Virus record (IMG/VR): IMGVR_UViG_3300029950_000054
Span: 1-32,163 of that record
Length of the DNA stretch: 32,163 nt
Reading direction: 5' to 3' (one strand)
Source of the DNA: a virus
In this document: positions 5,377 through 32,163 of the stretch, one piece after another
Numbering within the stretch: the first letter of the stretch is position 1
Layout: every line of letters starts with the position of its first letter
Translations under genes and position numbers: made by a program
The notes under the pieces: generated by a model
The model's database searches: none
Told to the model about the DNA's origin: nothing
What the model saw: the letters and a program-made list of their open reading frames with translations, nothing else

Positions 5377-6080
5377 GGAACTGGAACTCCGCTTGTCCCG
5401 GAGCCCGGGGTTACACCGCCATGGCGATGCGTATTGAGGTTTGTGCCGGCGGCGGTGATGACGTTTCCGTCCGGCGTTATCTTCAGCCCGTTAATCAGGA
5501 AGGTGCCGTCTGCCTGCAACTGAAAGCTGCCCGCGCCGTTCTGCATCAGGGTTGTGCCGTCGGCCAGTACGTTGAACCTGGCCACCCCGTTGTCCATGGA
5601 GATGCTGTTGTCGTTCTTCAGCCAGACGAATTGGGTGCCAGCCTTGTTGCGCATGCGAACGCCGTTATTCTGGAAGTCCGGCAGCGCGTTGGGCTGCGAC
5701 CTGAACCCAGGCAGGAACATGGCGTCCTGCATGTTGTGGAAGCGCCCGATTGGGTTTTCCGCCACCCCGCCGCTCTGCACCCACCCATCAATGCAGCGCT
5801 GAGAGAACAGGATGTCCCCCTCACAACCAGCATCGATCTGGTACTCGACGCAGTAGTCACCGCCGGGGAAGTAGACCGGAACCTCGATGATTGGAGGTAT
5901 CGTGAACTCGGCACCGTTGATGTCGACCCTCAATATCCCTGGCTGCACCTGGGCAAGCTGCGTGACTGGGTCGAAGGTCCTGACGTGCCCGGGCAGCGAA
6001 GTGCAAACACCTTTCATCACCTCACGAAAGGCGTCGCGCATCATCTTGGCCTGCTTAGTGCGGCCTTCTTGTTTGAGCAT
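5373..6080 (-). CDS. Membrane-puncturing spike protein, Gp138-type
   Basis: This 235-residue protein matches the layout of the Gp138 spike family. Residues about 30-115 form the OB-fold-like N-terminal domain (SLPGHVRTFDPVTQLAQVQPGI, then IPPIIEVPVYFPGGDYC and GDILFSQRCIDGW). A region of short repeated strands follows that would make the triple-stranded needle (NGVARFNVLADGTTLMQNG, FQLQADGTFLINGLKITPDG). The C-terminus contains THRHGGVTPGSG; paired histidines of this kind hold an iron ion in related spikes. It should form the tip that breaches the outer membrane. GGGAG six bases upstream supports the start. A terminator lies just upstream, so it may be transcribed separately from the gene before it or by antiterminated polymerase. 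Confidence 0.85.
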   Translation of the reverse strand: MLKQEGRTKQAKMMRDAFREVMKGVCTSLPGHVRTFDPVTQLAQVQPGILRVDINGAEFTIPPIIEVPVYFPGGDYCVEYQIDAGCEGDILFSQRCIDGWVQSGGVAENPIGRFHNMQDAMFLPGFRSQPNALPDFQNNGVRMRNKAGTQFVWLKNDNSISMDNGVARFNVLADGTTLMQNGAGSFQLQADGTFLINGLKITPDGNVITAAGTNLNTHRHGGVTPGSGTSGVPVP

Positions 6081-6641: not shown

Positions 6642-8057
6642 TCATCGCACGAACTGCTGACCGCGCATGTAGGAAGTGTTGACGGAGGCGACGGCCTCGC
6701 CACGGGTAATTACCCCGTTACGGTTTATGTCCAGGCCGGAGTTGGCCGCGTACTCGCGCTGGTAGGGGCCAGTGTCGCGCTCCCACATCACGTATGAGTC
6801 TGGGCGCCCTACCGCTGCCGGCCATAGAACGGCCAGGTAGGCGTCTCCCAAGTTGCGGATGCGACCTGAGTAGGGCTTGTAGTAGGCCTCCACGTAATCG
6901 AGTTGGCGCACAGCGGTCATGCGTGCGAGCTGAGCAGTGGATGTACCAACCTCGCGCGCAGACGCCTCCAGGAACTGAATAAGGCCCGTTGCTGTACTGC
7001 CTGGGTTCCGCGCTGCTGGACTGAACGTGTAACCAGTCTCGAAGCCCATCACGGCCATGAGCCAGTTGGGATCGAACGACATCCGTTCGCATATCTCACG
7101 CACCTTCACCCGGAACGCCTGGTCGACCCTGGCTCCCCAGATCAGCTTTCCGTTTTGCTGGGTTGCGATCTCGGTAGCTGCTGGCGCGGTACCGGCGCGC
7201 AGGCCGTCGATCTCGGTTCGCCACAGGTCGCTGTGCGAATCGCCTGAATGCTTCATCGCGAAGATGTTGTATTCGCCATTTGCGGTCGCGTCACCACTGA
7301 GCTCAGAGATGAACAAATTCCCGGTATTGAAGGTGGCAAACTCGCTTTCTACATTTATCCTTCCGTTGATTCGTAGTGCGGGATTGAGCTGCACGGCCAC
7401 GAATACGCCAAGGCCGTCAGGCCCGCGGGAAACCTCTGGGATGCCGATCATTCCGCTGAACTGATCAACTCTCACCATCGTGGTGGTGCGCGGCATGTTC
7501 GGCTTGGTAACGACGATGCGCCCGCGATCCTGCATCCATTCAAATTTGTAGGCGTATGCCAGTTCGGTCATTGCTTTCGGGATGTCTCCGTCAACCACGA
7601 GGCCCGAAGAAAGCGGCCTGGCGTCGGCAAACTGAGCGTTGTCGATATCGATTGGAAGCGGCCATGCCGCGGCAAGAGCGCGAATGACTTCCTCTACCCT
7701 GGTGCCGATGCCAAATGAAAGCTGGGCAGACGCCCGATCGGTGGCCGGCTGCCCAGACCTGCAGATCAGTCTTGTGATGATCTCTGGTGAGCCTGGCTCG
7801 CGCTCGCGCAAGGTGTTGGTCACGAAGCCTGTAAAAATCGCGTCTACGTTGTCGTTGTACCCAGCGCGAAGCACGATGCTCGAGCGCTGGGCGATGGCTG
7901 AGCCCTTGTTCATGTTGTAGAGGCGGATGTCGGCGAACGACAGCGCGTCACCGGGAGAGATATCAATGTTGAACTGGATGCGGAACTGCCGGCGACCGGA
8001 CTGGAGCCCAATGTACGGCTGGCCGTTCACGTCAATCGACCAAACACGCTCTCTCAT
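6642..8057 (-). CDS. Baseplate hub protein fused to a lytic transglycosylase domain, with an EF-hand loop
   Basis: This 471-residue protein appears to join two functions. Residues about 1-285 resemble a tail hub of the gp27/D type (IDVNGQPYIGL, IFTGFVTNTLRERE, ISELSGDATANGEYNIFAMKHSGD). Residues about 310-425 look like an SLT-type transglycosylase: FDPNWLMAVMGFETGYTFSP with the likely catalytic Glu340, then STATGLIQFLEASA. Near the end, residues 443-454 (DINRNGVITRGE) fit the 12-residue calcium-binding EF-hand loop exactly. The enzyme part would locally open peptidoglycan during DNA injection. The gene overlaps the plug gene by 4 nt and precedes the secreted-protein insert. Domain limits are estimates by eye. 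Confidence 0.85.
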   Translation of the reverse strand: MRERVWSIDVNGQPYIGLQSGRRQFRIQFNIDISPGDALSFADIRLYNMNKGSAIAQRSSIVLRAGYNDNVDAIFTGFVTNTLREREPGSPEIITRLICRSGQPATDRASAQLSFGIGTRVEEVIRALAAAWPLPIDIDNAQFADARPLSSGLVVDGDIPKAMTELAYAYKFEWMQDRGRIVVTKPNMPRTTTMVRVDQFSGMIGIPEVSRGPDGLGVFVAVQLNPALRINGRINVESEFATFNTGNLFISELSGDATANGEYNIFAMKHSGDSHSDLWRTEIDGLRAGTAPAATEIATQQNGKLIWGARVDQAFRVKVREICERMSFDPNWLMAVMGFETGYTFSPAARNPGSTATGLIQFLEASAREVGTSTAQLARMTAVRQLDYVEAYYKPYSGRIRNLGDAYLAVLWPAAVGRPDSYVMWERDTGPYQREYAANSGLDINRNGVITRGEAVASVNTSYMRGQQFVR

Positions 8058-9020: not shown

Positions 9021-10421
9021 CTATCGCTCCGTTGTGGTCTTCAGGTCGCCCAGCGTTTCGTAGTTCTGGCGCTCGTTGACCTGCATGATTTTTGACTCAA
9101 GCGCCTGGCCGTCGATCTGGATGGTTGCGTTCAGGCTGCTTTCAACCTTGATCGGGGTTCGATTCAGCGCCCCGGCCAATGCCTCGGCGTTTGCTTGACG
9201 GTCTTCGTCTGGCGTGGCTCCGCTCGATGGCGGCATGCTATCGGAGGCCGATCTGTCCCTGTGCTCAAGGAAGTCGACATCCTCCTGGGACCGAATGACC
9301 TTGCCCGTGTATTCCTCGGGCTTTTCATACCTGAAGCTGCTGCTTTGTGTTGGATTGCCATCGCCGCCGAACATCAGCTCCATCGGCCCCTTGATTCTTT
9401 CCAGCCCGGTGACGCCCTTGAGCATGTCGTCGAAGCCGCTGGCGGCCTCGCCGTAGCCGGGCACGTACTCATTCAAGGATCGGTTGAGCAGGTTCGATCC
9501 GATCGCGCCGCCAGTAATTGCCATACCGGCAGCGCCTGACTTGCTGATAAGACCCCCAACCGATGTAAGCCCCAGCTTGGCGAGCGTTGCGCCAACCACT
9601 GCCGCAACGGACGAGGCGCCCAGCGCGGCTGTTGCTTCCGGGTTGTTTGAGGCGTAATCAATCGCACCGCTGATGTTTCCGCGATGGTCCTTGAGGAATT
9701 CGTTGAGTGCGCTTCCTGCGCCTACAAGGCTTTTCATGAACTTCTCGGACAGCTCATTGCTGACGCCGTCAATGATCAGCCCAAACTCGGCCGAGTTTTC
9801 GGCGAGCTTCCTTGCGTTATCGGTCAGTTGGTCGACGCTTCCGGTCAGCGAGTTGGCCCGCTTCATGGTGTCGTCCAGCTTCTCTACGCCGCCGGCCAGC
9901 GAGCGGAATACACCGTCTGACAGCCCGAGCGAGCTTTGAACCTGGGCGCGCTGCCCCTCGTCCAGCTTGGGAATCATCTCCGCGAGCGCGCGCATGAACT
10001 CTTCGCCAGTGCTGGTCTGATACAGCGAACTGACATCAATGCCGGCTGTTGCCAGATCATTGATTGGTCCGGCATCACCCTTTAGGCGAAGGTTGTTTTG
10101 GATTTCCTCGAAGCGCTTCAGGGTATCGACGGCGTCCTCTGCGTCCCCACCCATCAGTTTTAGGGCGTTGCCGTAGCTGTACACGGCCGCCTGAGACGTG
10201 CGCATGTTCTGCGTGGACATGGCCAGCTTGTCGACCTTGCCCGCGACACCAACGATAGCGCCAGCAGCCGCACCAAACGCACCGACCAGCGATGCAGAAA
10301 TGCCCAGCGCGCCCGACTTGATTCCATTCAAACTGGCGTTGATCTTCTTGTCGCCCGCTTCAAGGGCTTTGGTGTCATAGCCGATGCCGATCAGGAATGA
10401 CTTCAGTACTTTGCTAGCCAT
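9021..10421 (-). CDS. Tail tape measure protein, short
   Basis: This 466-residue protein is Ala/Gly-rich and mostly helical, with a hydrophobic stretch near residues 35-60 (LGISASLVGAFGAAAGAIVGVAG) and another around 270-310 (ALGASSVAAVVGATLAKLGL). It follows the tail assembly chaperone, whose frameshift product overlaps its start by 8 nt, which is the standard tape-measure position. It sets tail length and helps DNA passage. At about 1.5 angstrom per residue it predicts a tail near 70 nm, short for a myophage. There is no peptidoglycan hydrolase domain here; that activity is on the hub instead. Confidence 0.9.
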   Translation of the reverse strand: MASKVLKSFLIGIGYDTKALEAGDKKINASLNGIKSGALGISASLVGAFGAAAGAIVGVAGKVDKLAMSTQNMRTSQAAVYSYGNALKLMGGDAEDAVDTLKRFEEIQNNLRLKGDAGPINDLATAGIDVSSLYQTSTGEEFMRALAEMIPKLDEGQRAQVQSSLGLSDGVFRSLAGGVEKLDDTMKRANSLTGSVDQLTDNARKLAENSAEFGLIIDGVSNELSEKFMKSLVGAGSALNEFLKDHRGNISGAIDYASNNPEATAALGASSVAAVVGATLAKLGLTSVGGLISKSGAAGMAITGGAIGSNLLNRSLNEYVPGYGEAASGFDDMLKGVTGLERIKGPMELMFGGDGNPTQSSSFRYEKPEEYTGKVIRSQEDVDFLEHRDRSASDSMPPSSGATPDEDRQANAEALAGALNRTPIKVESSLNATIQIDGQALESKIMQVNERQNYETLGDLKTTTER

Positions 10422-17780: not shown

Positions 17781-18596
17781 TTAGCGAAGAACGCCCGGCG
17801 CTGTCTTGCCTGCGTCTTGGTTGGCCTTGACCTCGCGGGCGCTCACTGGCTCCGCGATGCATCGGCAGGAATAGTCAGACCCAGGCTTGATCGGGACACC
17901 CTTGTCGCTCAGCGGAAGGTTGTCCCAGCGGTAAACCCCTTTGCCGTAGGCGGTGACCTTGTTGGCGATCTCGTGATGGCGGTGCCGAACACGCTGGTCG
18001 TCCGAGTCACGCCATCTGAAGTACTCGAAGCCGGCACCCTTCTGCTGCTTCTCGGCCAGCTCGCCCTGAATCTTCGATGTCTGGTCGCGGGCGATCATCT
18101 TGGCGCGGCGCTGGGTCACCCCGAACTGCTCCTGCAACGCCTTCTCGATGTAGCCAGGCCGCATACCGGAGCGCATGTTCGCCATCACCAGCGTCTGCAC
18201 CTCTTCCAGATACTTGGCGGGGATTGACTTGATCAGCTGGGCGTTCTGTTGGGCCGAGGCCTTCAGGTAGTCCTGCATGACGCTGTTGCCGCTGTACACG
18301 TCGATGCCGGCCGACTTCTTCAGGTCGCGCTCGGACTTCTTCAGCGATGACTGGACGAACTCGCCGGCTATCCTGCTCGCGCCAGCGCTGACCCTTTCGT
18401 TTTGCCACTTGCTGAACAGGAACGACATTGCGTTGCTGATTAGGTCAGACCAGGCGTCAGTCGTGGTAACCGCGTCCTGCGTGTACTCCGGCGCCAACTG
18501 GCGAACCAGCGGCATGATTTCCTTGCTGATCGACGCCTTGACCTGCTTGACCAGCCGCTGCAGCTTGGCGTTGTACTGGATGCCGATCATGTCCAT
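17781..18596 (-). CDS. Minor head protein, Mu gpF / SPP1 gp7-like
   Basis: This 271-residue protein is helical in its first 120 residues. It then has the family motif region of phage head morphogenesis proteins: GVTQRRAKMIARDQTSKIQGELAEKQQ, and a Cys/His end YRWDNLPLSDKGVPIKPGSDYSCRCIAEPV, which is the classic minor-head signature (G-SDYSCRC). It usually associates with the portal and enters the head. AGGA before the ATG supports the start. The gene follows the portal gene and a possible 25-codon ORF. Confidence 0.9.
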   Translation of the reverse strand: MDMIGIQYNAKLQRLVKQVKASISKEIMPLVRQLAPEYTQDAVTTTDAWSDLISNAMSFLFSKWQNERVSAGASRIAGEFVQSSLKKSERDLKKSAGIDVYSGNSVMQDYLKASAQQNAQLIKSIPAKYLEEVQTLVMANMRSGMRPGYIEKALQEQFGVTQRRAKMIARDQTSKIQGELAEKQQKGAGFEYFRWRDSDDQRVRHRHHEIANKVTAYGKGVYRWDNLPLSDKGVPIKPGSDYSCRCIAEPVSAREVKANQDAGKTAPGVLR

Positions 18597-20059: not shown

Positions 20060-21610
20060 TTATAGGAGGTCGCGGATCGATCGCTTGCCTTTGATGTAAA
20101 CCTCGGACAAGGCGTCGATCATCACGTCTGTCTGGTCGTCGTACTTGTGGCTGTCGTCGGCGGTGAAGGATGCGACCTCACACACGAACTCGTAGTTTTG
20201 GCTGTCGTCGTACGGCAGGCAGACCAGCTTGGCAGCGTGGAAGCCTTGAACGTCCAGGGCGCGGGTCAGCTTGTCGCGGTCCCGAGGAACTGGCGTAACC
20301 TTGAGCGGCAGGCGCTTCTCCATCTCCTGGATCAGGCCGGTACCGCTTGATTTGTCCTCGACGTAGACCCGACGCAGGATGCCGTTGGCCTTCCCGTTCT
20401 TGGCCCAGGCGCCTTTGACGAACGCCTCGAACTCACGGCGTAGCGTCTTTGCGTCCATCCGCCCGCGCTTCATGCCAACGCGGTAGATGCGGCCCTCGGC
20501 GACGCCCCACTCCGCGAACACAGTCCAGTCATTCCAGGTGTTGGTCTTCTGGGCGGTATCCGCAGTGATGAAGCGGTAGTCGAACTTCTCCGGCAGCGGC
20601 AAGTCCGCCCCAGCATCCACGTCGCCGTAGTACTGGAAGTCATCAGCCGAGAATATCCCGCCGTCCAGCGTGTCGGGGTCTTGCATGTACTGGCTGCTGA
20701 AGGTGTACGGGTGAGCCGTGCGGAGCGCGATCAGGTCATGAACGCTTTCCTTGGCCGGCCAGTACGACCAGTAGCCGTCTACCTGCTCAGACCCGCACAC
20801 GCTCTTGATGCAGCGCTCGCGGATGCCGTCAGGCAGTGAGTCGATGTAGTCCTGATTGACCAGGGCCGGGATCTTGATGTGCAGGTCGATCTTCAGGCCC
20901 ATGCCGCCCGACAACAGGAACGCGGTCGAGTCGTCGATGTGGCCGCGCTGCTGGATCGCTACGAACGGTGTGCCGCTGTGCGCCTTCCGGCTGCGCAAGG
21001 TGTTCACCAGGCGCGTGTGCGATTTGCGGCGCTTTGCCTCGCTGAACAGATCGTCGATCTTGTCCCAGTCATCCGCCTGGATGTGGCCGCTGTACTCGTC
21101 GCCCATGTAGCCGCCACGGACACCGGTGATCTGTCCGCCACTGGAGCGGCTGAACAGTTGGTGTACGCGCTTCCCATCCTTGGCGAGCGTCCAGTCGTCT
21201 ACCTTGTCCTTCTCAATATCGAAGGGGTAGAACTCGCGAAACTCAGCAGACTTGACCAGGGCGCGGCTGCGCTCGCTGTTCTCGTCGACCAGGCTCTTGG
21301 AATAGCTGGTGTTGAGGATTCGCACCCGGCGGTGCTTGACCATCGTGTAGACCGGCAGGTGGACGGACCAGAATTCGGTCTTGGTGCCGCCTGGCGGTAT
21401 GTTCACGACGATGTTCTGCGCGTCACCTGCAAGCATCTTGCGGGCGGCGTAGTCGAAGTAGTGGTGGTGCCAGTTCGTTCTGAAGCTGTCGCCCTGGGTG
21501 ATGTTAAACCACAGGCTCGTGAAGGCCAGGGGGCTATGCTCGCCCGCCGCGACCAAGGCGGAGCGCTCAGCGTGGCTCAGCGCGTCCCACTCGATCGGTT
21601 TGATAGCCAT
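20060..21610 (-). CDS. Terminase large subunit (ATPase-nuclease)
   Basis: This 516-residue protein has a P-loop-like motif, PPGGTKTE at 72-79 preceded by NIVVNI, within the N-terminal ATPase domain, and RGGYMGDEYSGHIQADD at about 165-181. The C-terminal nuclease domain carries FITADTAQ (Asp351), VYVEDKSSGTG (Asp419) and KYDDQTDVMID (Asp491/492/495), the acidic triad expected for an RNase H-like fold. It packages DNA into the prohead and cuts it. The start shares one base with the small-subunit stop (TGATG). The family cannot be assigned to headful or cos cutting by eye. Confidence 0.92.
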   Translation of the reverse strand: MAIKPIEWDALSHAERSALVAAGEHSPLAFTSLWFNITQGDSFRTNWHHHYFDYAARKMLAGDAQNIVVNIPPGGTKTEFWSVHLPVYTMVKHRRVRILNTSYSKSLVDENSERSRALVKSAEFREFYPFDIEKDKVDDWTLAKDGKRVHQLFSRSSGGQITGVRGGYMGDEYSGHIQADDWDKIDDLFSEAKRRKSHTRLVNTLRSRKAHSGTPFVAIQQRGHIDDSTAFLLSGGMGLKIDLHIKIPALVNQDYIDSLPDGIRERCIKSVCGSEQVDGYWSYWPAKESVHDLIALRTAHPYTFSSQYMQDPDTLDGGIFSADDFQYYGDVDAGADLPLPEKFDYRFITADTAQKTNTWNDWTVFAEWGVAEGRIYRVGMKRGRMDAKTLRREFEAFVKGAWAKNGKANGILRRVYVEDKSSGTGLIQEMEKRLPLKVTPVPRDRDKLTRALDVQGFHAAKLVCLPYDDSQNYEFVCEVASFTADDSHKYDDQTDVMIDALSEVYIKGKRSIRDLL

Positions 21611-22257
21611 CAGTCAACCAGTTTGTCTACCAGCGCGGCGATGAGCGATGAGTCGACCGGCGCCTGGCCTGTATTGCTGCCTGGAGCCCTGTCGCCTTCC
21701 GCCTCATCAAGATTGAATGCCTGGCGCTCAAGCATGACGAGCGTCTTCAGGGTGTCGGCCAATTCCTTCATAGTCTTGGTGCGATTCGGGAGCCCGCTCA
21801 TCTTGCTGGCCAGCTTCAGGACATCGGCCATTGCATCGCCGTCGTCGTGATCGCCATCCTTCAGTTGAGCAATCAGTTCCTTGATCGTGCCCTGCTCATC
21901 AGTCAGCGCTTCCAGCTCATCCAGCAGTTTGTTGGTGAGCCGGCGAGACCTTCCAATGTCAGTCCGATGCGCAATCCGGACATCGGCAATAACCTGAGCG
22001 TTTGCATCAACGATGCCTTTCTCGGTTAACACCCGCTCCTTGTTAACCTCGGTGTTAACCACCTGGCTGTTAACCAGTGCATCAGCCTTTGCTTTGATCT
22101 TCCCTGCGAGGTCTCGCGTCCATCCGTCACGCTTGGCGCGCTTGTGGATGGAGACATGGGACACGGTGCAGGTTGTTGCGATCTCTCGCACTGACAGCAC
22201 GCCAGCCCTGTAGAGCTGCTCGATGCGCTCCCAGTCGGTGGGCTGCTTGTCGGTCAT
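21610..22257 (-). CDS. Terminase small subunit
   Basis: This 215-residue protein has an N-terminal helix-turn-helix (YRAGVLSVREIATTCTVSHVS, then IHKRAKRDGW), a central helical region, and an end rich in Leu/Asp. It recognises the packaging site and passes DNA to the large subunit. The region encoding VNSQVVNTEVNKERVLT has four GTTAAC hexamers in 50 nt and may itself be the recognition site. The gene starts after a small 57-codon gene and is directly coupled to the large subunit gene. Length is typical. Confidence 0.88.
   Translation of the reverse strand: MTDKQPTDWERIEQLYRAGVLSVREIATTCTVSHVSIHKRAKRDGWTRDLAGKIKAKADALVNSQVVNTEVNKERVLTEKGIVDANAQVIADVRIAHRTDIGRSRRLTNKLLDELEALTDEQGTIKELIAQLKDGDHDDGDAMADVLKLASKMSGLPNRTKTMKELADTLKTLVMLERQAFNLDEAEGDRAPGSNTGQAPVDSSLIAALVDKLVD
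22025..22074. repeat. Cluster of four GTTAAC palindromes in the small terminase gene
   Basis: GTTAAC occurs at 22025-22030, 22042-22047, 22054-22059 and 22069-22074, spaced 17, 12 and 15 nt. On the minus strand three lie within GGTTAACA-like contexts. The only other copy I noticed in the window is near base 352. Packaging sites often lie within the small terminase gene, so this is a candidate binding site. Confidence 0.55.
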
Positions 22258-22261
22258 GTCT

Positions 22262-22435
22262 TTACTCTTGCTCTGCTGGCTTGGCGATCAGGTAATCGAA
22301 CTCGGCGAAGATGGCAACATTCTGACCACTGGCATCCTCGATATGCAGCACGCCGCAATCGACATATGCGCGCGCGCCATTGACCGACTCAATTCGGTGC
22401 CCGCCATCAACCGAAACTTCATAAACCTTTTCCAT
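22262..22435 (-). CDS. Small protein of unknown function, 57 residues
   Basis: A frame of 57 codons begins MEKVYEVSVDGGHRIESVNG and ends IAKPAEQE. GGAG lies seven bases before the ATG, and this GGAG is the end of a 40-bp inverted-repeat element, so a hairpin in the mRNA could hide the ribosome binding site. The protein is beta-rich in look with one cysteine and has no signal or membrane segment. It lies between holin and small terminase genes, 4 nt before the latter. I do not recognise a family. Confidence 0.7.
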   Translation of the reverse strand: MEKVYEVSVDGGHRIESVNGARAYVDCGVLHIEDASGQNVAIFAEFDYLIAKPAEQE

Positions 22436-22443
22436 GCTCTATC

Positions 22444-22483
22444 TCCGCGCCACGTTTTCTAATGCGCCAAATCGTGGCGCGGA
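22444..22483. repeat. 40-bp inverted-repeat element, copy B (after the holin stop)
   Basis: Arms TCCGCGCCACGTTTT (22444-22458) and AAATCGTGGCGCGGA (22469-22483) are 15 bp with one mismatch and a 10-nt loop. It directly follows the holin stop codon and supplies the GGAG of the next gene. In the holin frame after the stop it reads SAPRFGALENVARR. Compare copy A at 30571-30610. Confidence 0.9.
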
Positions 22484-22816
22484 TTAATCGACCTTGCGAC
22501 CTGGCAACTTGAAGTCAGTCACCCGGTCAGCAATTGACCGGATCTTCTCCACGCCCAGGAAGCCAACCCAGCCGCCTGCGAAGGTGGCCATGCTCTGGGG
22601 CAGACCGAAGAAGTCCAGGCCGCTGATGATCGTCAGCGTCAGGCCGCCGCAGATAGCACCCTCGACCAGCATCTGGCGCCGCGTGCCGCCACCATAGGTG
22701 ATGCGCAGGACAGCCATGATGCAGGACAGCGCAGCCGCATAGAGGATTGGCGAATGCTGGCTCAACCACGCAAGCGCTATCGCCCATGTGTCTGGTTTGT
22801 CTGGCATGTTGGACAT
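22484..22816 (-). CDS. Holin
   Basis: This 110-residue protein has a short charged start (MSNMPDKPDTW), then hydrophobic segments at about 12-36 (AIALAWLSQHSPILYAAALS), 51-67 (VEGAICGGLTLTIISGL) and 76-88 (SMATFAGGWVGFLGV), and a basic tail ending KLPGRKVD. It resembles the lambda-family holins of Gram-negative phages. It would open the inner membrane to release the endolysin. GGAGG seven bases upstream supports the start at 22816. Its position as the first late structural-side gene, far from the endolysin, is noted below. Confidence 0.85.
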   Translation of the reverse strand: MSNMPDKPDTWAIALAWLSQHSPILYAAALSCIMAVLRITYGGGTRRQMLVEGAICGGLTLTIISGLDFFGLPQSMATFAGGWVGFLGVEKIRSIADRVTDFKLPGRKVD

Positions 22817-23166
22817 CTCGGTTCCTCCCCGTCAGGGAGTTATGGATATGACAGGCCATGACCTGCGGAATAGATCAGCCCCGGCGGCACTCCCAGCTCA
22901 GAGCGAAGGGTGTGGCGGGGCCGAAAACAAGAAGGCCCCGATCAATGTCGAGGCCCTGAATAGGTGCGCGTGTCTTCCCACGCTGCCAGCCAAAGACCAT
23001 CACGGCGTCGACACCCAAGTGCATCGATCTCGCCGTTCCTGTCTCGCGCCACCCTGAAAGCGTGTTAGGTCATGGCGCGCGGGCTGCCGGTGTTTTTCCG
23101 TAGCGCTGCACTACCGGCTTATCGACGTCTAGGCCTTCCCGAGGGCTGTCCTGGCTACAGGTGAAA
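22817..23166. other. 350-nt stretch without a supported gene before the holin
   Basis: Both strands have only overlapping short frames with no good ribosome binding sites or known motifs. The minus strand has a terminator-like hairpin at 22921-22955. I see no tRNA, promoter or repeat I can defend. A 49-codon minus frame runs through the hairpin and is not believed. Confidence 0.5.
22921..22955 (-). terminator. Intrinsic terminator before the holin gene
   Basis: On the minus strand GGCCTCGA-CATTGA-TCGGGGCC is an 8-bp stem with one G-U pair, followed by TTCTTGTTTTC. It lies about 105 nt before the holin start, after the 54-codon gene. Confidence 0.65.
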
Positions 23167-23390: not shown

Positions 23391-23434
23391 CGTTAGTCAC
23401 TCCTCGATACGCGCAGGAATGACAGGATGGGTGA

Positions 23435-29857: not shown

Positions 29858-30646
29858 TCAGAACTCCAGGCGCTTTATTTCGGAGAGAAGAGCCCGGCTA
29901 TGGCGCTGGATGTAGATCTGGCTGAGCTTCTGCTTGCGGGATTCGAAGTCCATGCCCACGTCGATAAGGGATGCATTGACGCGCTGCAAGTGTTCAATGC
30001 AGCGGATCTCGCAGGGAGTGAGGTGGTCGCGGATCGAATCGGTTGGGCTGATGCAGTGCGCCGCCCGGTACGCCTTGGAAGGCATGCCCAGGGCAATGCG
30101 GTTGATCAGGTCGAATTCATTGCTGAAGTGGTAGTGCTTGGTTTCTTTACCGGCGGCGAGACGCCCGTGCTTGATCGCGTCAGTTAGCGCTGGAGCCTCA
30201 AGACGAGCACGCTCCCTAGCCTGCTTCCCCTCGACAAGCTGAATATGACCGATGACGACAGCGTCGAAGGTGCGGATGACGTGCAAGTGGAATCGAGCAT
30301 TGACCCACATTGCATAGGCGTAGATCAGCTCCTTGACCACGTAAGTCCCGCCGCTGCGCCCCTCAATAGTCACCACAGGTAAACTACCCGGATTCTGGGT
30401 AGTTAATTCATCGAACATTTCCGTGAACGATTCGGTTGCCATGTACTTGCCCGGCTCTTTGGTGCGCTTGTTCGCGCCATCCGCCACCGCCGCCTTGTGT
30501 AGGTCATTCAGGCAATACCGACCTTCAAGGTCTTGCTTGATTTTGACGCCGCCGAGACTAAGGGCCATTGTCCGCGCCACGTTTTGCGATTGCAGAAAAC
30601 GTGGCGCGGATTCGTTGGTGTTGACGACTGATTGTGGAATAGGCAT
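29858..30646 (-). CDS. KilA-N domain protein, probable antirepressor-type regulator
   Basis: This 262-residue protein has a KilA-N domain at about 27-120: SLGGVKIKQDLEGRYCLNDLHKAAVADGANKR, then YMATESFTEMFDELT, VVTIEGRSGGTYVVKELIYAYAMWVNARFHLHVIRTFDA. KilA-N proteins are DNA-binding and often act as antirepressors or early regulators. The C-terminal part is helical and unrecognised. GGAG six bases before the ATG at 30646 supports that start, but a second ATG (Met27, 30568) follows an inverted-repeat element that encodes SAPRFLQSQNVAR. Both starts may be used. Confidence 0.85.
   Translation of the reverse strand: MPIPQSVVNTNESAPRFLQSQNVARTMALSLGGVKIKQDLEGRYCLNDLHKAAVADGANKRTKEPGKYMATESFTEMFDELTTQNPGSLPVVTIEGRSGGTYVVKELIYAYAMWVNARFHLHVIRTFDAVVIGHIQLVEGKQARERARLEAPALTDAIKHGRLAAGKETKHYHFSNEFDLINRIALGMPSKAYRAAHCISPTDSIRDHLTPCEIRCIEHLQRVNASLIDVGMDFESRKQKLSQIYIQRHSRALLSEIKRLEF
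30571..30610. repeat. 40-bp inverted-repeat element, copy A (in the KilA-N gene start)
   Basis: Arms TCCGCGCCACGTTTT (30571-30585) and AAAACGTGGCGCGGA (30596-30610) match perfectly over 15 bp with a 10-nt loop. It lies within codons 13-25 of the KilA-N frame and just before Met27. Copy B lies at 22444-22483. Confidence 0.9.
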
Positions 30647-30681: not shown

Positions 30682-30710
30682 AAAAGCCACCCTTGCCCGG
30701 TGGCTTTTTT
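30682..30710. terminator. Intrinsic terminator between the early regulators and the KilA-N gene
   Basis: AAAAGCCACC-CTTGCCC-GGTGGCTTTTTT is a 10-bp stem; the plus strand has six T and the minus four, so it could act in both directions. For early minus-strand RNA it takes the place of a tR1-type terminator before the replication genes. Confidence 0.7.
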
Positions 30711-30773
30711 GTGCGTCCGATTTACTGCTTGGTTGTTTCATTGGCAGATCCTCAATAGTCCCTGAGGGGCTAA

Positions 30774-31503: not shown

Positions 31504-32163
31504 ATGGATATCGCTGGGCGCTTGCGCGCAAAAATGGCTTCTCTTGAGATGAGCGAGAGTGAGCTTTCGAGGCGGTGCGGTGTTCCCCAGCCAACCATCA
31601 ACCGCATTCTTTCCGGTGAAAGCAGCAGTCCACGCAAGAGCACTGTCGAGCCGCTGGCCAGGGCCCTGAAAGTTTCGCCTGACTGGCTTCTATTTGGAGG
31701 CGATGACTCCAGATCTAACGGATCTCCCAGTGAGGCCGACTATGCACTCATCCCCCAATACAAGGCGCACGGCTCGTGTGGCGATGGATACCTGAACGAC
31801 CACGTCGAGGTCACCGAGGGCCTGGTATTCAAGCGGGACTGGCTAGCGCGCATGAAGGCCAAGCCTGAAAACCTGCGCATTATCTACGCCGAGGGGGATA
31901 GCATGGAGCCCTACGTGTTCGAGGGCGATGTCGTGCTGTTTGATAGCTCAAAGACCGAGCCAAAGGATCGCCAGGCCTACGTCATCCGACGACCAGATGG
32001 TGGGATCAGCATCAAGCGCATGATTCAGCAGATGTCCGGGGCCTGGATGATCCGTAGCGACAACGGTGACAAGGCCAAGTACCCGGACGAAATGCTGTCG
32101 GAGAACGCTTTGCACGAGATTCCCATCTTGGGGCGCGTCATCTGGCGTGGCGGCGAGATGTAG
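31504..32163 (+). CDS. CI-like repressor with LexA/S24 autocleavage domain
   Basis: This 219-residue protein has an N-terminal HTH ([23 protein letters not shown], about 16-38) and a C-terminal S24 peptidase domain with the serine motif [15 protein letters not shown] (Ser133) and the lysine region GGISIKRM (Lys171). The expected cleavage site lies between the domains; the best candidate is Cys92-Gly93 in HGSCGDG, since no Ala-Gly is seen there. This would resemble UmuD more than lambda CI. It keeps lysogeny by binding the operators next to the Cro-like gene and is removed on RecA-dependent induction. The gene is complete, ending TAG at the last base. Confidence 0.92.

Follow-up and report, generated by a model that had tools for sequence, protein, structure and literature searches.

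Several classes of short DNA elements are known in temperate phages and their hosts. The stoperators of cluster A mycobacteriophages are short asymmetric sites that are bound by the immunity repressor and occur many times per genome. The extended start-associated sequences (ESAS) of cluster K mycobacteriophages are inverted repeats with a spacer, which are repeated within each genome and often lie just upstream of start codons. The operator of NikR, a host metal regulator that binds as a ribbon-helix-helix (RHH) tetramer, is GTATGA-N16-TCATAC. Lambdoid boundary sequences are short conserved stretches that separate modules and whose neighbours differ. Finally, the aba element of BstA prophages is 63 bp long, carries terminal CCCGCC direct repeats and exists at one locus (PMC8585504).

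The palindrome examined in this paper, hereafter the Pseudomonas site, resembles each of these in part. Like stoperators, it is a dispersed and putatively protein-binding site within phage transcription units, present several times per genome and conserved in relatives; unlike them, it is a dyad of 36-37 bp with 1-4 copies per genome, common to phages with different repressors. With the ESAS it shares spaced inverted repeats, several in one phage and often near start codons, whereas the sequence and host are unrelated, the spacing of the Pseudomonas site is fixed and one of its slots lies inside a gene. The NikR operator also consists of two half-sites separated by approximately two or more helical turns, and an RHH-type binder is proposed here as well, although half-site and spacing differ and NikR is not phage-borne. 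Lambdoid boundary sequences are likewise conserved short sequences between modules with varied neighbours, but they contain no fixed-spacing dyads, and breakpoints at the Pseudomonas site are no commoner than at gene ends. The aba element, which acts as DNA (PMC8585504), is comparable in that it is short and extends over the start of a prophage gene of the KilA-N type; the Pseudomonas site, in contrast, is palindromic and present at several loci. A BstA protein was not identified, and aba was set aside.

The window, meaning the whole stretch of DNA analysed, is a 32,163-bp IMG/VR viral contig with a lambdoid gene order, one end of which is cut within cI. Its two palindromes and the genes around them are as follows.

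21610-22257, minus strand: probable terminase small subunit (MTDKQPTDWERIEQ...), function judged from position
22262-22435, minus strand: 57-aa ORF, PHROG 37193, after site 1; its GGAG overlaps the site 1 arm
22444-22483: site 1, C-type, spacer 18, core 22446-22481; late slot
22484-22816, minus strand: holin, lysis protein S family; its stop codon abuts site 1
29858-30646, minus strand: antirepressor-type regulator with a KilA-N domain; 262 aa if started at the upstream ATG, 236 aa if started at the ATG at 30568
30571-30610: site 2, C-type, spacer 18, core 30573-30608; right-operon slot
31504-32163, plus strand: CI-like repressor, cut by the contig end

Site 1 reads TCCGCGCCACGTTTT-CTAATGCGCC-AAATCGTGGCGCGGA, with 1 mismatch between the arms, and its dyad can be written CGCGCCACG-N18-CGTGGCGCG; site 2 reads TCCGCGCCACGTTTT-GCGATTGCAG-AAAACGTGGCGCGGA and has perfect arms. 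The preliminary description of this DNA was correct in reporting two matching 40-base palindromes with near-identical arms and different loops, and in its mismatch count, but had its labels for copies A and B reversed: the copy after the holin lies at 22444-22483, that of the KilA-N gene at 30571-30610. No third copy was found in the window at up to 3 mismatches. Shuffled windows gave a mean of 0.14 matches, and two matches were seen in 0 of 100 shuffles.

On the gene strand, the holin TAA is followed by TCCGCGCCACGATTTGGCGCATTAGAAAACGTGGCGCGGA, GATAGAGC and the ATG of the 57-aa ORF, while site 2 appears as TCCGCGCCACGTTTTCTGCAATCGCAAAACGTGGCGCGGA, then CA and the KilA-N ATG, ending 2 nt ahead of the short-form start. 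Both palindromes stand just ahead of a start codon, and the statement that an arm supplies the GGAG of the next gene holds for the 22444 copy (GCGCGGAG-ATAGAGC-ATG). Site 1, which comes after the holin stop, reads SAPRFGALENVAR in frame. Site 2 encodes SAPRFLQSQNVAR when KilA-N translation begins at the upstream in-frame ATG, which would give the protein the extra leader MPIPQSVVNTNE-SAPRFLQSQNVAR-T; the KilA-N domain homology starts at residue 29-34, past this site-encoded leader. Just upstream of the holin lies a strong Rfam match to Proteo-phage-1 RNA (RF03044, E 5e-11; 23082-23160, minus strand), whose position is likely that of the leader of the late operon. A terminator-like hairpin, AAAAGCCACCCTTGCCCGGTGGCTTTTTT, is located at 30683-30715 and separates the KilA-N gene from the cro-side genes. 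The left operon lies beyond the contig, and with it the PHROG 5439 protein discussed below and, presumably, a third site.

The two palindromes belong to a family with the consensus CGCG(C/A)CACG - N18 or N19 - CGTG(G/T)CGCG, the core being a dyad of 36-37 bp. According to the base at arm position 5, the sites can be divided into C-type and A-type. Among 299 Pseudomonas genomes, an 8-mer pattern gave 160 C-type matches in 76 genomes (14 for the reversed control), and 39 A-type sites were found in 30 genomes; some genomes carry both types, and the total is approximately 200 sites. Only 4 sites in these genomes are discordant, with the arm types mixed within one site, and there are 0 sites with T or G at arm position 5, though pairing would hold in them. 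No sites were found in the 113 genomes of other gammaproteobacteria searched, or on plasmids; matches that pattern searches gave outside Pseudomonas look like chance in GC-rich genomes and were discarded. Judged from these searches, the family appears to be confined to Pseudomonas prophages and phages. It is also apparently undescribed: no published description was found in the open-access literature, and one match to the arm sequence that was examined proved to be a primer sequence, the remaining ones being, by their titles, on unrelated subjects. A search of this scope lends novelty weak support.

In viral contigs, the C-type pattern CGCGCCACG-N{10,24}-CGTGGCGCG was found in at least 120 stretches, and the compensated A-type variant CGCGACACG/CGTGTCGCG in at least 120, being as common there as the C-type and in the same slots. 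Among the viral matches listed, the spacer is 18 in 82 and 19 in 50, with at most one match at each of five other lengths. The exact or one-mismatch sites in 0.9 Mb of prophage have spacers of 18 (34 sites) and 19 (14 sites) only, and none has a spacer of 14-17 or 20-23. Symmetric half-sites at a set spacing, as expected of a dyad operator, are thus present in both arm types.

It can be seen that the sites recur in the same slots across phages, at about one site per operon (left early, right early and late). Slot 1, in the late operon, lies 2-4 nt past the lysis genes, and in most members 2-3 nt past the last of them; the genes after it vary (genes of 64, 70, 77 and 144 aa, the terminase small subunit and others); in the relative L282, a gene with the same start as the 21610-22257 gene directly follows the site, without the intervening 57-aa ORF. 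Slot 2, in the right operon, comes after a cII-like gene, at the antirepressor start or before a ParB-like/replication gene, and its leader, NxxAPRFxxSENVAR, is found fused to various domains, KilA-N and Rha among them. Slot 3, in the left operon, is at codon ~73 (or ~127) of a gene of 101-163 aa (PHROG 5439). A fourth site exists between head genes in some phages. The slots agree in the following isolated phages.

phiAH14a: sites at 6073, 19109 and 27228
phiPSA1: sites at 23420, 32436 and 39333
LESphi3: sites at 7619 and 13917
AH02: sites at 18346 and 32766
PseuP_222: sites at 10203 and 56376

Placement close to start codons, as the preliminary description proposed, is seen in the window copies and the right-operon slot and is contradicted by slot 3, a main slot that lies mid-gene. 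The peptide frame shared by the two window copies, which had been listed as a feature, is a by-product, because the third slot reads the same DNA in a different frame and encodes PRHExxISENVAR. Compared with the late-slot cores of L282, L059 and L036, that of site 1 is inverted, with 16-17 of 18 positions matching when inverted and 6-7 when read directly. Against L282:4499-4534, 17 of 18 core positions agree once inverted; such in-place inversion is rare. The slot-2 core is likewise inverted in place between L263 and L047.

Assembled prophages mostly carry 2-4 copies, several kb apart. The palindromes do not behave as a dispersed host repeat (REP/REPIN), an origin the earlier account had allowed for: each Pseudomonas genome holds 0-8 copies, clustered a few kb apart, and phage genes surround the clusters examined. 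A selfish mobile palindrome, similar to REPINs or Rickettsia palindromic elements and spread by a transposase in trans, would account for the many contexts, the in-frame residence in genes and the occurrence of both core orientations in the same slot. Such an element is nevertheless highly improbable, considering the few recurrent slots with slot-specific cores, the lack of fresh identical copies across slots, the limit of 1-4 copies per phage and the lack of clear copies in the chromosome; the carriers were not found to share a transposase.

In 32% of eligible cases, the homology between two phages ends no more than 33 bp from the site, compared to 10% at random points, and one and the same site connects unrelated genes on its upstream and downstream sides, in slots between functional modules. 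Together with a layout of arms plus spacer as in the 34/35-bp loxP and FRT, this could indicate a joint kept for module exchange, served by a site-specific recombinase or by short-homology recombination. However, the strong breakpoint excess of the first analysis vanished with ordinary gene ends as the control, since these are breakpoints in 41% of cases, no less often than the site. There is therefore no excess at the site, which is an ordinary kind of mosaic joint, and the excess recombination expected at a tyrosine recombinase core site (loxP/FRT/dif-like) was not observed. Family clustering also revealed no recombinase common to the phages, and a dedicated role in module exchange is considered improbable.

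Shared arms with different loops had been taken as a sign of selection on structure. Selection as such is upheld by hundreds of relatives in Pseudomonas phages, which carry frozen arms at the same places, while selection on RNA structure is not. In slot-3 genes chosen by protein similarity, the arm codons are invariant (CAC 71/71, AAC 55/55, GTG 71/71 and GCG 66/66), whereas conserved codons next to the arms do vary synonymously. Arm core positions 3 and 6-8 are constant in 76/76, and the arm variants occur at the arm ends and are one-sided. Sites of the 19-spacer class have four A/T-rich inner positions beyond the arms, typically AAAT opposite AAAA, and only 4 of the 86 sites have all of these paired. 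The rigid spacing, unpaired inner bases, frozen codons and absent T/G types therefore favour two-fold-symmetric recognition of duplex DNA. From these patterns we infer that the palindrome is a dyad-symmetric DNA-binding site rather than a hairpin in RNA or a leader of the Ash/Icd/c4 kind.

If the arms instead paired in mRNA, the palindrome would be a hairpin controlling translation or processing of the next gene, possibly as an antisense-controlled leader. As RNA, the window palindromes both fold well (z -3.4 to -7.1), and each stands close ahead of a start codon. Arm position 5 is also compensated (C-G to A-T), the 4 discordant sites comparing with ~64 expected under independent arms. This scarcity is the best argument for pairing and, being equally expected from a stem, counts against the DNA-binding reading; a symmetric protein that has two specificities would account for it as well, as would template switching through which quasi-palindromes correct themselves. 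Template switching could produce compensated changes and core inversions alike, and the inversion of the site 1 core is the kind of event it makes. Moreover, loops normally tolerate changes in length, whereas the spacing here is locked at 18/19, and a hairpin is also at odds with the unpaired inner bases of the 19-spacer class, the one-sided changes at arm ends, the mid-gene slot and the fact that arm position 5 never shows a T-A or G-C swap. No match to c4 or any other Rfam family falls at the sites: cmscan of the window returned only Proteo-phage-1 and a chance snoRNA match, with c4 RNA absent. Among ten window proteins searched against Pfam, Ash and Icd were absent, and the KilA-N protein matches KilA-N alone, so the suggested link to a c4/Icd/Ash leader was found by neither search. 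An RNA hairpin is accordingly judged unlikely.

For a DNA-binding site, the likeliest binder would be the RHH-like PHROG 5439 protein encoded in the left operon. Of 24 site-bearing prophage regions, 20 carry this protein, as do 6/6 isolated temperate phages checked: phiAH14a, phiPSA1, LESphi3 (a divergent 101-aa form annotated as a DNA-binding protein), AH02, PseuP_222 (gene at 56318-56632) and PfDIW6. A gene for a candidate DNA-binding protein thus accompanies the sites, with the exceptions of G109, G046, G201b and phiAH14b. One of the four regions without it is the window, where the contig stops short of the left operon; the others are G046 and G201b, which have one site each, and G109, a true gap with three sites and no detected homologue. 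The AlphaFold model (pLDDT 82) is extended at residues 22-30 with helices at 31-44 and 49-63, an arrangement that would match the strand-helix-helix fold of an RHH monomer. RHH proteins predominate among the good short matches from Foldseek, with NikR (1.1 A over 43 columns), MatP, Reg576, VapB and AtaR, but all matches have E >1; a profile search gave a weak RepA/CopB-type match (E 0.02).

The predicted DNA-contact strand co-varies with the type of site inside the gene. Counts uncorrected for ancestry are 58:0 for C-type versus A-type with the strand R-x-[RK]-x-R, and 17 A-type versus 2 C-type with R-x-H-x-[LM], one of the two being the discordant L450. This link, between a gene and a site within it, follows clades and may reflect hitch-hiking. 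Mismatches of strand motif and site type in trans were found in G036 and G286, and two IMG/VR contigs have a C-type left site and an A-type right site.

Several variants of the slot-3 gene were also observed. In L012, L017 and L129 (146-173 aa), PHROG 5439 is duplicated, two RHH-like units flank the site, and the second PPRHxISxS copy has no site at the DNA level. L360, L372 and the P. aeruginosa phages LESphi3, TC7, MD8 and phi2 encode a 101-aa A-type protein that keeps the site-bearing tail SRHEYTPSENVSR and differs in its N-terminal part, with a sub-threshold Pfam Abi_alpha match (E 0.05). In addition, phiAH14b (16.8 kb, with primase and helicase genes) has one perfect site (L001:7003-7038), and no PHROG 5439 homologue was detected in the 13.3 kb scanned; it is possibly a satellite exploiting the regulator of a helper.

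In the mechanism proposed, each half-site would consist of approximately CGCG(C/A)CACG plus an A/T-rich run, with two of them held 18 or 19 bp apart. The PHROG 5439 protein would bind the site on double-stranded DNA, one dimer per half-site, with the dimers joined across the spacer as in NikR. With protein bound, a site might work as a roadblock or an internal operator through which the lytic operons are coordinated or dampened. The targets would be the gene of PHROG 5439 itself, which contains a copy, the antirepressor or replication genes (site 2), and the late genes that follow the holin (site 1). As a whole, this explanation is considered about as likely as not.

Put forward more tentatively, the sites and the protein may constitute an undescribed regulon. 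An RHH-like PHROG 5439 protein with 1-4 dyad sites, about one per operon, would exist in diverse temperate Pseudomonas phages whatever their repressor type, in at least 2 specificity classes, C and A, matched by variation in the DNA-contact strand, and co-resident prophages could affect each other's operons. If this is true, approximately one third of Pseudomonas species genomes would hold prophages with a control layer that is invisible to annotation, and a concrete candidate protein with a 36-bp target would be available. The frozen codons in phage genes would also be explained, and a handle would be gained on the coordination or cross-talk of prophage operons.
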